Origin: Nitrospinaceae bacterium
GTDB taxonomy: Bacteria; Nitrospinota; Nitrospinia; Nitrospinales; VA-1
DNA: 38,172 nucleotides
Direction of reading: 5' to 3'
NCBI GenBank assembly: GCA_029261455.1
Contig: JAJDBH010000014.1
Span: 1-38,172 of the forward strand
Below, piece by piece: positions 4,062 through 33,910 of the stretch (its first letter is position 1; every line of letters begins with the position of its first letter). A model generated the notes under the pieces. The model searched no databases. It was not told the origin of the DNA and worked only from the letters and a program-made list of their open reading frames with translations. A program made the position numbers and the translations under genes.

Positions 4062-6751
4062 TACCGCACGTCTTCCAGTTTTTCGATCATCAGAGTATGG
4101 ATCATATGTTCTTTGAAGCTGCGGATCACTTTGTTGAGGTCGAAATTCGGATTTCTCAGCGATACATAGAAAACATCAATGGCACGATCACCTTGAGTGG
4201 AAATCTTGGCTCGATGAATTCGAATGCCAAAATCTGCAAACACGGCAGAAACTTTGTAGAGCATGCCGATATGGTCCCGGGCTTCTACTCGGATCACTGT
4301 GAAAGGATTGCCCACTGTTCTTTCAACATGGACTCTGGGGACCATAGCCATCTTTTTCTGCTCACCCGCGTAACGGATTCGGGACTTCAACATTTTTTGT
4401 AAACTGGTTTCTCCCGTAAACAACTGACTCAGGCTATTTTTAATATCTTTCCATATTTCGAGATCTTCGGCATCAGCTTTGGCATTTGCTTCTACCTGCA
4501 GTGTGACAATCACGATGCCATCTTTTTTGAGATAGATTTGTGCGCCGAGGATGTTTAAGTTTTTGGCGGTAATGGTTCCTACAAGTTTTTTAAAAGCTTC
4601 ACTACCAATGGGGCAACAAAGAGTCAGGTTGTGATAGTTCCCTTCTTCATGGAACTGATGATGAAGAATAAACAACTTATCCTTGAAAGACCGGATGAGG
4701 CGGATGTGAAGCGCAACCTCTTGGGATGATGCTGTCATTAGATAATCTTCCGGCATTTGGCGAAGATGTTCTTCGATGTCGTTCACAGGCAGTTCGCGTT
4801 GCAGGGCTTTGAAAACCCCTGCCCGTGTTGCCAGGGGTTGTTGTTCCAAAGACTCAGGATCTTGCAGATGTTTCAGGGTTCTTTCATATAATTCTGAAAG
4901 TAATATTTTTTTCCAGGCGGTCAAAGTTCCCGGTGCCACTGCTCGCAACTCGGCATAGCTAAGCAGATAGAGTCCCTTCAACATTTCCGGGTTTGCAACC
5001 GTTTCCGCAAATTTTCGGATCACTGTAGGTTGGTGGATATCCTGATGCAAAGCCGTTTCGATCATGGTGTAAGGATGGGCCAGAAGGAAATGCAGGACTT
5101 GCCCATCCTCCTCATCGAGGCTTAGTCTTTCTGTCAGAGATTTTAAAAATTCTCCTGGTTCGTCAGTGGGTACTTTCCCCACCGATTGCAGAAGAGCCGA
5201 TAGCTTCAAAATCCCTTTTCTCAGATAACTCTGATACAAGGTGGTCAGATCGGTGGGGTTAGTGATGCCGGTTACAGCCAGTTCATCAAGAAAGCGAATG
5301 ACGCGCAGGGAATGTTCATCGGCAGTATAATGATGATAGAAGTCATGGTTCACCTTGCAGTGTGCCCACCCAAATTCTGGCAGGATCTGTTCCAGAATGT
5401 CTGTTTCATGCATCAGTCGCAGAATCTTCGCAGCAAACTTATCTTTCAAAATAGAGAACAAGAGACCCCTAACTTCTTCTCCTTTCATGAATTGGGCGTT
5501 AATGAGATTTTTACTCAGTCGCATTTGCCGTTGGAGTTTGTAATCGGGCAGAACCTGATGTTGTTTACAAAGCTCTAACGCGGTCAATAAAAGTGATTTA
5601 TCTTTTTTGAAATCTTCTTTCGCGTCACCGCTATAAATAAGGGAAGAATCTGAAATATGGAACCCATGGCCTACCGATTTTTTTGTCAATGAGGAGATTA
5701 CTTTTTTGAGCGATCTCTTAGGTTGGCGGCAATGCTCGAAAAGGTTTTGCGAAAAAGTATAGATATTGGTGGCATGCAGATAGTAGTCGCGCATGAACTC
5801 TTCCACAGGCTGACCCTGGTCGGAAGACTGGTACCCCAGGTTGGTGGCCAGTTGCTTCTGAGTGGCAAAAGTCAGGACATCGGTCTTTTTCTCGGTCAGA
5901 TAATGAAGTTCATTGCGGACTCGTAGTGAGAAATCAACAGAATGGTAGAGCGACTCAATTTCTTCGTTGGACAGAGCATGGGCTTCATTTATTTCTCGAA
6001 GCGAATGGCAACCATAGCGCACGGCGGTGGCCCATAAGGCGCTGTGGTAGTCCCGCAATCCTCCAGGTCCGTTTTTGATGTCGGGTTCCGGGTGACAGAC
6101 CACGCTGTCACCTTGGCCGTATCGGGTGTATTTTTCTTTTAATTTGGAGTTTAAGAACTGTTTTACGTGTTTTTGCAAAACATTTTTATGAATGGAGTTG
6201 TAAAACTTGTCATAAGTGGTTCGATTGCCAATGAGGAACCGGGTTTCTATCATGGAGGTTTTGATGGTCAAATCCTCTTGAGCAAGTTTCACACAGTCTT
6301 TAATGGTGCGGGAGCTGTGACCAATTTCCATGTCGAATCCCCAGATCACAGATAGCGCATCCTTAATAAATGTTTCTGTGATGGGTTGAGTTTTTCCAGA
6401 AAGGAGAAACAGGAGGTCAATATCTGAAAGCGGATTAAGTTCTCCCCGACCATAACCTCCTACAGCGATGAGGGTGAAATCTTCCAGAATGTTAGCTTCA
6501 GAATAAATCTCAAGCTGTGTCATGGAAAGAAGGACATGCCGAATGACCTCATCGACCAAACTGGTATGTGCCTGGATGATTTCGCGTCCACCTGTTCCCG
6601 AGCGATGCCAGGCTTTGATCTTTTCTTTCTCATCCTTCAATAGTTGCTTAAAGGTCTGGAAATAGGGCAGTCTCTGCTTGGGGTCGGCAGGGATATTCTT
6701 AACTTGGCTGAAATCAAGCGCCAGTCGGTAGTTGTTTTCAGAATTATCCAT
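4061..6751 (-). CDS. glnD: GlnD-family PII uridylyltransferase with degenerate HD (uridylyl-removing) domain
   Basis: 896 residues, the normal GlnD length. The nucleotidyltransferase site is intact: GGYGRGELNPLSDIDLLFL (residues 98-116, metal-binding Asp110 and Asp112). NGPGGLRDYH (about 228-236) and the GlnD-specific helical region follow. The HD domain begins normally (NHDFYHHYTADEHSLRV, His480). The canonical HD pair is replaced by Gln522-Ser523 (ALLQSVGKVPTDE, where E. coli has ALFHDIAKGRGGD), the later His aligns with Pro560, and the last Asp aligns with Glu601. Two C-terminal ACT domains follow (about 720-765 and 815-885); the first lacks the usual DRPG start. The enzyme should modify PII-type proteins when nitrogen is short, but deuridylylation looks lost. 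It is the first gene of the minus-strand run. Confidence 0.92.
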   Translation of the reverse strand: MDNSENNYRLALDFSQVKNIPADPKQRLPYFQTFKQLLKDEKEKIKAWHRSGTGGREIIQAHTSLVDEVIRHVLLSMTQLEIYSEANILEDFTLIAVGGYGRGELNPLSDIDLLFLLSGKTQPITETFIKDALSVIWGFDMEIGHSSRTIKDCVKLAQEDLTIKTSMIETRFLIGNRTTYDKFYNSIHKNVLQKHVKQFLNSKLKEKYTRYGQGDSVVCHPEPDIKNGPGGLRDYHSALWATAVRYGCHSLREINEAHALSNEEIESLYHSVDFSLRVRNELHYLTEKKTDVLTFATQKQLATNLGYQSSDQGQPVEEFMRDYYLHATNIYTFSQNLFEHCRQPKRSLKKVISSLTKKSVGHGFHISDSSLIYSGDAKEDFKKDKSLLLTALELCKQHQVLPDYKLQRQMRLSKNLINAQFMKGEEVRGLLFSILKDKFAAKILRLMHETDILEQILPEFGWAHCKVNHDFYHHYTADEHSLRVIRFLDELAVTGITNPTDLTTLYQSYLRKGILKLSALLQSVGKVPTDEPGEFLKSLTERLSLDEEDGQVLHFLLAHPYTMIETALHQDIHQPTVIRKFAETVANPEMLKGLYLLSYAELRAVAPGTLTAWKKILLSELYERTLKHLQDPESLEQQPLATRAGVFKALQRELPVNDIEEHLRQMPEDYLMTASSQEVALHIRLIRSFKDKLFILHHQFHEEGNYHNLTLCCPIGSEAFKKLVGTITAKNLNILGAQIYLKKDGIVIVTLQVEANAKADAEDLEIWKDIKNSLSQLFTGETSLQKMLKSRIRYAGEQKKMAMVPRVHVERTVGNPFTVIRVEARDHIGMLYKVSAVFADFGIRIHRAKISTQGDRAIDVFYVSLRNPNFDLNKVIRSFKEHMIHTLMIEKLEDVR

Positions 6752-31146: not shown

Positions 31147-31830
31147 TTACAGTTTCTCCATCCATTCTCTTGCAAGCCCTATAGCTGCGATAATCTGACC
31201 GGGCTTCATTTTTTTTTCAATAATGTCTGCGTTTCTGCGTCCTGTTTCATTTCCGTTCACACCGGCTATGTTGAACCATTTGTGTGCTTCTACATAATCC
31301 TGCTTCACCCCCTGGCCTCTTTCATACATCAAGCCAAGGTTTGACTGCGCACCGGAAATCCCCTGCTCGGCGGCCAGCCGATACCATCGGACTGCTTCCT
31401 GATCATTCATCGGGACTCCCTCACCTCGCATATGCATCAACCCAAGATTGTATTGGGCCTGACCATATCCCTGATCGGCAGCCAGCCTGAACCATTTTAT
31501 CGCATCAATGTAATCTCTTACGGCCCCCTGGCCTCTGCCATACATTACTCCCAGGTTATGCTGTGCTTGGGCTAGTCCCTGCTCGGCGGCCAGCCTGTAC
31601 CATTTGATCGCTTCTGCATAATCTTGTTCAACTCCCTGCCCCTTTCCATACATCAGACCGAGATTAGTTTGCGCCTCGGGGAACCCTTGTTCCGCCGCCA
31701 GTCGATACCACCTGACGGCCTCCTTATCGTTTTTGGGGATTTCTTTGCCTCTACTGTAAACCAGGCCAATATTGTATTGCGCTTCGGCAACTCCTTCTTC
31801 TGCCAGAGGCATCCACTCGTAAAAATTCAT
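31147..31830 (-). CDS. Sel1-repeat protein
   Basis: 227 residues made of five 36-residue Sel1-like repeats of the form AxxQYNLGLMYxxGQGVxxDYxEAxKWYRLAAEQG, with a shorter C-terminal cap. There is no signal peptide or membrane segment, so it is probably a cytoplasmic protein-binding scaffold. The repeats are also close at DNA level. It is the last gene of a minus-strand group with the zinc-ribbon membrane protein and two tiny membrane proteins. Confidence 0.88.
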   Translation of the reverse strand: MNFYEWMPLAEEGVAEAQYNIGLVYSRGKEIPKNDKEAVRWYRLAAEQGFPEAQTNLGLMYGKGQGVEQDYAEAIKWYRLAAEQGLAQAQHNLGVMYGRGQGAVRDYIDAIKWFRLAADQGYGQAQYNLGLMHMRGEGVPMNDQEAVRWYRLAAEQGISGAQSNLGLMYERGQGVKQDYVEAHKWFNIAGVNGNETGRRNADIIEKKMKPGQIIAAIGLAREWMEKL

Positions 31831-31866: not shown

Positions 31867-32493
31867 CTATTGCATGTTACGACGCAACTGCAACCCCATA
31901 TATCCCACAGTTAAGGTGAGCATGCTGATAAAATACATAATTAAAACGGTTACCCAGAACTCTCCTGTATCGGCGACGGAGTCATAAATGACATGGCAGG
32001 TGCGGTTTCTGCCTGCGAAACACTCCACACTGCCGTTGAGCACTGATCCTGCAAGGTACAAACACGTAATCGAACCTAACGCCATTAAAATGAAGATAGC
32101 CTTTTTATCGTATACATTAAATCCATCCAACCCCCACTTTGTTTGGCTCTCTGCCTCGAACCGTCCCAACACAGTGGCCGCTCTGGGGACAATCTGATAC
32201 CCCAACCAGCACATCGCAAGCAGCATCAACAGTCTGAAAATAGGATCGAGAAACGGAGGGAATTGCAGGAAAAAAATGCTTCGGGCAAAAAGAACTAAAA
32301 TGAAAATGGCTCCCATTGCAAAGAACATTGCATTACCATTACTGTCTTTTTTGGGTGTTGAAGATGATCTGAAAGGGCGGGTTTCTTCCTCTTGTCTGTT
32401 TTCTTGTGCTTCCTTGTATTTGGAAAAAATAACACCACAATTTGTGCAAAAATCCGAGGCCGGCTGTTCAAATTTGCATTTAGGACATTTCAT
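31867..32493 (-). CDS. Zinc-ribbon membrane protein of unknown function
   Basis: 208 residues from MKCPKC. The N-terminal zinc ribbon is CPKCKFEQPASDFCTNCG (four Cys). A charged linker of about 35 residues and about four hydrophobic membrane segments follow. Two Cys in the loop ECFAGRNRTCHVIYD may form a disulfide outside. I do not recognise the family. An in-frame start three codons earlier (32502) is possible. It follows the tandem small membrane proteins by 46 bases, so a common transcript is likely. Confidence 0.75.
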   Translation of the reverse strand: MKCPKCKFEQPASDFCTNCGVIFSKYKEAQENRQEEETRPFRSSSTPKKDSNGNAMFFAMGAIFILVLFARSIFFLQFPPFLDPIFRLLMLLAMCWLGYQIVPRAATVLGRFEAESQTKWGLDGFNVYDKKAIFILMALGSITCLYLAGSVLNGSVECFAGRNRTCHVIYDSVADTGEFWVTVLIMYFISMLTLTVGYMGLQLRRNMQ

Positions 32494-32539: not shown

Positions 32540-32644
32540 TCAATATCCCAAAACCGTGTGAAACACAGCGCCGATTCCAACGCACCAGTATATTGCAGCG
32601 CCGATCAGGTTCCAGATTGTGGCTGTGATTTGTTCAAAGTTCAT
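32540..32644 (-). CDS. Small single-span membrane protein (34 residues), second of a pair
   Basis: MNFEQITATIWNLIGAAIYW continues to a C-terminal TVLGY. One hydrophobic helix covers most of the peptide. Its ATG overlaps the stop of the preceding small gene (ATGA), and AAGGTGG stands at the right distance before the start, so coupled translation is likely. No known family comes to mind; accessory subunits of membrane complexes often have this size. Confidence 0.6.
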   Translation of the reverse strand: MNFEQITATIWNLIGAAIYWCVGIGAVFHTVLGY

Positions 32645-32745
32645 TGAGCCACCACCTTTACTACAAAGAAAAAAAACGCGAGGGTGGTGATCGCGGTGTT
32701 TGCCACCGCCGACCAGATCATGAGTTTGTGCGATAACGTTTCCAT
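32641..32745 (-). CDS. Small single-span membrane protein (34 residues), first of a pair
   Basis: METLSHKLMIWSAVANTAIT continues through a Phe-rich helix to VVKVVAQ. AAGGAAGG before the ATG is one of the strongest ribosome binding sites in the window. It has the same length as its downstream neighbour but no clear sequence similarity. Function unknown. The tight packing with the next gene and the zinc-ribbon gene is the best evidence that it is real. Confidence 0.6.
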   Translation of the reverse strand: METLSHKLMIWSAVANTAITTLAFFFFVVKVVAQ

Positions 32746-32899
32746 AGGCCTTCCTTAAATTTTAAGCCCGCAACCTTCTGGGCCAAAAGTGTGTGTAGCC
32801 AAGTTACTGGATACCTGTATTTCCCTTTAACTAATCCCTAGCAACAATTATTAAATTTTACAGGTTTGGCAGAGGTAGTACAAGGCTGCCCGATTATCG

Positions 32900-32914: not shown

Positions 32915-33271
32915 ATGGTTGAACTGGTTCTTATTGTTCATTTTATTATTATTGTATTTGTCATTGTGGGGTTTCCGGTTGGACTTATCATTGACTCTCT
33001 CCTGTTCCGCATTATTCATGTTACTACTCTGGCAGGGATCGCCCTGCTGATGGTTTTGGACATCCCCTGTCCCCTGACTATTCTGGAAGAAACCTTAAGA
33101 CAAGCTCCGGTTTATGAAGGCTCTTTTATAGGGAGCTGGCTCAATCGGATTATCTATCTGGAAGATTTTGATGCCTCCTTCGTCCCATACTTGGCGGTGG
33201 GGTTTCTCGTGTTGACGGTTTCTTCCTTTTTCTGGAGACCTGTTAAGCGTCACCATAAAGGTAGGTCCTAA
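32915..33271 (+). CDS. DUF2784-like small membrane protein
   Basis: 118 residues with about three membrane helices. It has the family features of an early His (IVHFIIIVF), the conserved CPLTILEETLRQ and the region YEGSFIGSWLNRIIYL. DUF2784 proteins are inner-membrane proteins of unknown role. The assignment rests on the motif order and size. Confidence 0.72.
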   Translation: MVELVLIVHFIIIVFVIVGFPVGLIIDSLLFRIIHVTTLAGIALLMVLDIPCPLTILEETLRQAPVYEGSFIGSWLNRIIYLEDFDASFVPYLAVGFLVLTVSSFFWRPVKRHHKGRS

Positions 33272-33382
33272 TGTGACAAGCTCTAATAATTCATAACCTC
33301 GTTCTACATTTCTTCAGCTGTTTTATCTCGCCGAATGGTGATAAAATTTAAATTCAAAATTCTTGATGTGGAGAAATTCGAT

Positions 33383-33910
33383 ATGAATAAGACTTTATTT
33401 GCGATGATTCTTTGCTTTTTGTTTATAGGGACATTTTCGGCGGTTGCAGATCAGAGGCAACATAAACCCTATGTCGGATCAAAAGCCTTCGAACGCATGA
33501 AGCAATTGGTAGGAAACTGGGAAGGCACTATGGACATGGGGAAGGAAACCATGAAGATGAAGGCCAGTTATAAATTGACTGCTGCAGGAAGCGCACTGGT
33601 CGAAACATTTCATGAAGGGACCCCACATGAAATGGTATCGGTCTGGCACGACAACAAAAAAAAGAAACTGACCATGACTCATTATTGCGCTGAACACAAC
33701 CAGCCTAAACTGGTTATGCAGGGAATGGATGACAAGCAAGTGACGATGGACCTTGCCTCTGACAGTGAAATTGATGTTGCTAATGAGAGTCACATCCACT
33801 CTGCTGCTATCCAGTTTGGGGGGAATGACAGGATGACCCACATGTGGACCAGTTTCAAGGATGGCAAAAAAGATATGGTGGTTAAAATTGCCTTCAACCG
33901 TGTGAAATGA
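33383..33910 (+). CDS. Periplasmic DUF1579-like protein
   Basis: 175 residues after choosing the ATG at 33383, which has GGAG upstream and opens a signal peptide (MNKTLFAMILCFLFIGTFSAVA). The mature part shows the DUF1579 pattern: MKQLVGNWEGTMDM, ALVETFHEGTPHEMVSVWH, LTMTHYCAEHNQPKL, and the lipocalin-like strand order. It is a small beta-barrel protein of unknown role. Confidence 0.75.
   Translation: MNKTLFAMILCFLFIGTFSAVADQRQHKPYVGSKAFERMKQLVGNWEGTMDMGKETMKMKASYKLTAAGSALVETFHEGTPHEMVSVWHDNKKKKLTMTHYCAEHNQPKLVMQGMDDKQVTMDLASDSEIDVANESHIHSAAIQFGGNDRMTHMWTSFKDGKKDMVVKIAFNRVK

Follow-up and report, generated by a model that had tools for sequence, protein, structure and literature searches.

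In the present study, two small overlapping genes, here called A and B, were followed up in a window of 38,172 nucleotides (the whole stretch of DNA that was analysed) from the genome of a marine nitrite-oxidising bacterium of the Nitrospinaceae. On the comparative sequence evidence, A and B are genuine protein-coding genes for small membrane proteins, because purifying selection specific to their reading frames, relatives in three genera and a conserved overlap have been observed. We tentatively propose, at a probability of roughly 0.45, that the pair might be a translationally coupled two-gene unit, and that the two helices would pack together and, as accessory subunits or regulators, against a larger membrane protein. 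The features of the locus are as follows.

32641-32745, minus strand: ORF A, 34 aa, a single transmembrane helix, METLSHKLMIWSAVANTAITTLAFFFFVVKVVAQ (from the ORF list, relatives, pN/pS and AlphaFold2)
32540-32644, minus strand: ORF B, 34 aa, a single transmembrane helix with a conserved C-terminal GAVFHTxLGY, MNFEQITATIWNLIGAAIYWCVGIGAVFHTVLGY
32641-32644, minus strand: ATGA stop-start overlap, combining the TGA of A and the ATG of B
32652-32658, minus strand: ribosome-binding site of B, AAGGTGG, lying within the 3' end of A
32749-32756, minus strand: ribosome-binding site of A, AAGGAAGG, read from the sequence
31867-32493, minus strand: zinc-ribbon membrane protein, 208 aa, downstream neighbour outside the conserved unit
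31147-31830, minus strand: Sel1 ORF, downstream of A and B on the same strand
32915-33271, plus strand: DUF2784 membrane protein, divergent neighbour (Pfam DUF2784, E=2e-16)

This layout agrees with an earlier sequence-only reading, which had described two 34-residue ORFs overlapping by ATGA, a ribosome-binding site ahead of each, one hydrophobic helix in each product, and zinc-ribbon and Sel1 ORFs downstream on the same strand; the strong site of A, however, is not conserved as such among relatives. A further ORF of the window (33335-33910) has a signal-peptide-like start and a weak match to DUF6488, and is an ordinary hypothetical protein.

A scan of named genomes placed the relatives of the genome of the window (3.5 Mb in 234 contigs, estimated to be 84.5% complete) in the Nitrospinaceae, with Nitrospina sp. 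LS_NOB among them. Among 46 Nitrospinaceae species genomes from nine genera, a profile of B detected relatives of 32-34 residues in 18 genomes, belonging to three genera (g1, g6 and g7), and a profile of A placed A directly upstream of B in all 18. The ATGA overlap is kept in 17 of these genomes, and G065 has TAATG. Reading-frame conservation, the absence of which had been named beforehand as refuting, was found for both ORFs, with purifying selection in both frames. The pooled pN/pS among four close relatives was 0.30 for A and 0.11 for B, and the genus-level values were 0.33 for A (six members) and 0.20 for B (seven members); for A, the ratio was approximately 0.3 in each of the three genera. 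Among the other frames of the four close relatives, eight of ten showed values from 1.1 to 6.7, and the two low values (0.55 and 0.18), one antisense frame per region, probably reflect the constraint on the sense frames. The variable columns of B in seven g1 genomes fall at codon positions 1, 2 and 3 in 12, 8 and 30 cases, respectively. Moreover, a purine-rich site ahead of B (AAGGAGA, CGGAGGTG or TGGAGGG) was observed in most relatives and is weak in G065, and the residues of A encoded over this site vary (K-V-V, K-E-M, K-E-I and N-G-G).

Both products have the properties of single membrane helices. The best 19-residue Kyte-Doolittle mean is 1.92 for A and 1.75 for B, and AlphaFold2 predicted one helix for each protein, spanning residues 2-33 in A (pLDDT 88.8) and 3-32 in B (pLDDT 92.4). 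The conservation follows the helix period in A (p=0.004) and in B (p=0.005), suggesting one constrained face on each helix, and a single conserved face per helix in turn suggests that each would pack against another helix, although this conservation leaves the contact of the face unspecified. In 19 sequences of B, the residues N12, G15, V22, G23, G25, F28, H29, L32, G33 and Y34 are invariant. Homology between A and B through tandem duplication was considered and rejected, as profile comparison gave a probability of 1.4%.

The sequence-only reading had also suggested a complex with the 208-residue zinc-ribbon protein, and this suggestion was not upheld. No co-occurrence was observed over the 46 genomes (Fisher p = 0.69), with full-length zinc-ribbon relatives in four of the 18 genomes with the pair and four of the 28 without it, and the genes are neighbours in some species of one genus only. 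The zinc-ribbon gene adjoins the pair in three genomes only (G000, G003 and G004); G010 has a 5' fragment of it, and in G036 the pair and a zinc-ribbon relative lie on different contigs. In other words, the adjacency is a one-genus neighbourhood and no conserved unit. As a separate observation, in G010 (L007 from 1636, G010:C93) approximately the first 11 zinc-ribbon codons are joined to a Sel1-like fragment in a deletion fusion. The neighbours of the pair differ among its three genera, and no larger partner gene travels along. A DUF2784 gene, frequent but not universal in the genus, lies near the pair in G001, G004 and G010; in G003 it is truncated together with A, and DUF2784-gene sequence replaces the 5' end of A while B is intact. 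For tiny genes of this kind, same-strand adjacency thus says little about function.

A longer homologue of B, here called long B, was observed in the sister genera g2, g4, g5 and g8, and also in g15, a genus of another family of the same order (Nitrospinales). It is a single-helix protein of 46-52 residues with the core RPLKExLWNLFGILFYITVAVGAVYHL, the same core as in B, and profile comparison supports the homology of the short and long forms with 97.8% probability (E 1e-12). The two are alike in the core WN(L)xGxxxYxxVxxGAVxH and in one conserved helix face (p=0.016 in long B), whereas long B differs in its N-terminal tail, which is charged or contains proline, in the lack of an A gene and in its steady locus. 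A was not detected in the family genomes with long B, and no genome carries both the short pair and long B. In g5 and g8, long B lies between TrmL/TPR genes and a group comprising an SGNH hydrolase, a methyltransferase-like gene and HflX (gene names by inspection). The TrmL/TPR-to-HflX locus is steady in g2, g5 and g8; g2 and g4 show parts of the gene order, g4 on the HflX side. The methyltransferase-like gene also has a homologue in g7 (48-50% identity), located approximately 4.4 kb from the pair, and it is possible that this represents a trace of the ancestral gene order.

The pair is accessory in the family, and it is absent from several family genomes of 92-97% completeness. In a GroEL tree of 39 genomes, whose root is not fixed, the multi-member genera form clades, and eight changes among the states of pair, long B and none were counted, consistent with inheritance and repeated loss. 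In G020 (92% complete), which has no pair, a decayed remnant aligning to the second half of B was found at the syntenic site between a DUF1343 gene and a yqeY-like gene (L283, approximately 4424-4500; G020:C11). By inspection, which also gave the gene names, it reads YLFVEGGAVFHTFVEY followed by a stop; nothing of A or of the first half of B is left. In G013, a second copy of B lies 2.9 kb from the first, and its A is split by an insertion (G013:C24:321343-321584; L020, and L067 near 9384). The inserted sequence of approximately 40 bases, ending CTTCATGCCCCGGAGGGGTA, has loosely similar counterparts twice more within 20 kb and may be a short interspersed repeat. Another contig of note is filed under Flavobacteriaceae NORP142 (L151, NVSL01000002.1); in this contig, flavobacterial-type genes turn at approximately 4738-5330 into the end of a Nitrospinaceae cytochrome c gene and an A-B pair; this region contains many N and is 95% identical to G066 over 648 bases. 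Transfer of the pair to Flavobacteriaceae was rejected, as the contig looks chimeric or contaminated.

Several other explanations of these observations have to be weighed. Short ORFs are common in this DNA (119 of at least 25 aa across approximately 9 kb of the window), as might be expected if A and B were chance open frames with no product. However, in 200 dinucleotide shuffles of the window, in which ATGA-linked pairs of small ORFs occurred 6.6 times per window, pairs with both ORFs hydrophobic were found at 0.01 per window, and none of the 200 contained such a pair with both ribosome sites. Together with the frame-specific selection, the relatives in three genera and the conserved overlap, this makes chance frames scarcely credible. 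More weight might be given to the view that only B is functional and that A is mainly a short leader ORF, which opens or feeds the start of B. Consistent with this view, long B stands without A in the sister genera, and A varies more than B (mean column identity of 68% in a 10-sequence alignment versus 76% in 19 sequences). Moreover, G003 has lost the 5' end of A but retains B, and the A of G064 does not begin with ATG, so that B may function on its own. Nevertheless, the protein-level purifying selection and the conserved helix face of A would be needless for a pure leader, and we regard this explanation as unlikely.

The sequences might also be read as encoding membrane-depolarising peptides, either like type I toxins or like two-peptide bacteriocins, since the genes are tiny, hydrophobic, adjacent, patchy in distribution and sometimes lost or broken, and small toxins such as TimP are known to act on the cytoplasmic membrane (PMC7667032). 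However, no convincing match was obtained with PHROGs, NCBIfam or Rfam models, no relatives of B were found in phages or IMG/VR and none of long B in plasmids (searches of limited power with such short queries), neither a leader peptide nor an immunity gene was recognised beside the pair, and the distribution mostly tracks the species tree. A toxic role thus appears decidedly improbable, and an origin from phages or plasmids was rejected, as the phage, plasmid and viral-contig searches returned no relatives. A role of A and B in electron transport, as small helices serving a membrane enzyme linked to cytochrome c in the nitrite-oxidising chain, is suggested by a monoheme cytochrome c gene directly upstream of the pair, on the same strand, in three g6 genomes, by cytochrome c genes of the same family near long B in G018, G019 and G022, and by the invariant His29 of B. 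However, this cytochrome family is strongly expanded in Nitrospinaceae (5-29 matches per genome, with 29 in the genome of the window), so chance neighbours are expected; no such cytochrome was observed at the other g6 loci or at any g1 or g7 pair locus, many nitrite-oxidiser relatives are without the pair, and FixP_N does not exceed its cut-off. Cytochrome c was rejected as a conserved partner, because its family has too many members and the g6 copy is more closely related to a cytochrome that adjoins a membrane protein of 213-217 aa in some g1 genomes. We consider the electron-transport role itself quite unlikely.

The leading, tentative reading is that the pair would be a subunit or regulator of some membrane complex other than one with the zinc-ribbon protein. 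Where genes overlap by ATGA, translation of the second is commonly coupled to that of the first. In A and B, ribosomes ending A would restart on B at the ATGA, which would provide roughly equal amounts of both proteins. The helices of A and B might then pack together through their conserved faces, and we infer that the resulting pair would attach to a larger membrane protein in an accessory or regulatory role, in the manner of CydX and other small single-helix proteins that form parts of larger membrane enzymes (PMC4325964, PMC6005532). Long B would be the older form; the short form has no charged N-terminal tail on B and would have gained A. As long B occurs in genomes with no detected A, the core component is probably B, with A joining later. 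Counting against this reading are the differing neighbours across genera, the pair-less genomes at 92-97% completeness, the occurrence of long B without A and the state of A in G003 and G064 described above. As a more speculative version, to which we would give little credence, A and B might be dedicated helices of an unrecognised Nitrospinaceae membrane complex, possibly linked to cytochrome c, in which a coupled two-helix module replaced long B as the single ancestral helix.

Among known nitrite oxidisers in the marine water column, the most abundant belong to the Nitrospinota (PMC10839748). No study devoted to small proteins of this phylum was found among the papers searched. The pair provides a well-delimited test case, with a conserved overlap, a clear homologue that lacks the partner gene, and losses in nature, one of which has left a remnant. 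Thus, comparison of strains that have the pair with strains that lack it might give access to its function.

Compared with known systems, neither A, B nor long B had a curated-family match above cut-off, where one was shown, in Pfam or NCBIfam. The weak matches to AA_permease_C, DUF6868, CcmD, SecE and FixP_N are mutually inconsistent and below the shown cut-offs, and were rejected. No convincing match was obtained among solved structures, and Rfam has no family at the locus, which says little on uncurated RNA. AA_permease_C (PF13906) has a similar helix motif, and seven of 19 B sequences match it (best E 0.0028); however, the B of the window scores 15.3 bits against a cut-off of 27, and PF13906 is the C-terminus of large permeases whereas B stands alone. 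This match is likely to represent a shared helix pattern. FixP_N, the N-terminal anchor of the cbb3 oxidase subunit CcoP, is also a single helix, and one long-B member matches it weakly (E 0.019). In none of the 46 genomes was FixP_N above its curated cut-off, and neither B nor long B was among the matches listed. The best FixP_N-like match in the family is a 63-residue single-helix protein (G028, L228 1420-1611; also G019, L229), encoded after a cytochrome c gene that in G028 resembles cbb3 subunit II; this protein is possibly a stand-alone small subunit. Identity of the pair with a small cbb3 subunit was rejected, since no FixP_N match exceeds the cut-off and the likely cbb3 locus has another small protein. 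The closest parallel considered for the proposed role is CydX of E. coli, a protein of 37 aa that is part of cytochrome bd oxidase and required for its function (PMC4325964, PMC6005532). CydX resembles A and B in its size, its one hydrophobic helix and the ease with which it is overlooked in annotation, but it is an oxidase subunit, whereas A and B adjoin no recognised oxidase gene. Searches of Pfam and NCBIfam with A, B and long B gave no CydX-type subunit model at E<=1, and inspection of the neighbourhoods recognised no CydA or CydB genes. With no curated match above the shown cut-offs, no convincing solved structure and no phage, plasmid or viral-contig relative, the pair is a new family of single-helix small proteins without annotation, and belongs to a kind that is already known.
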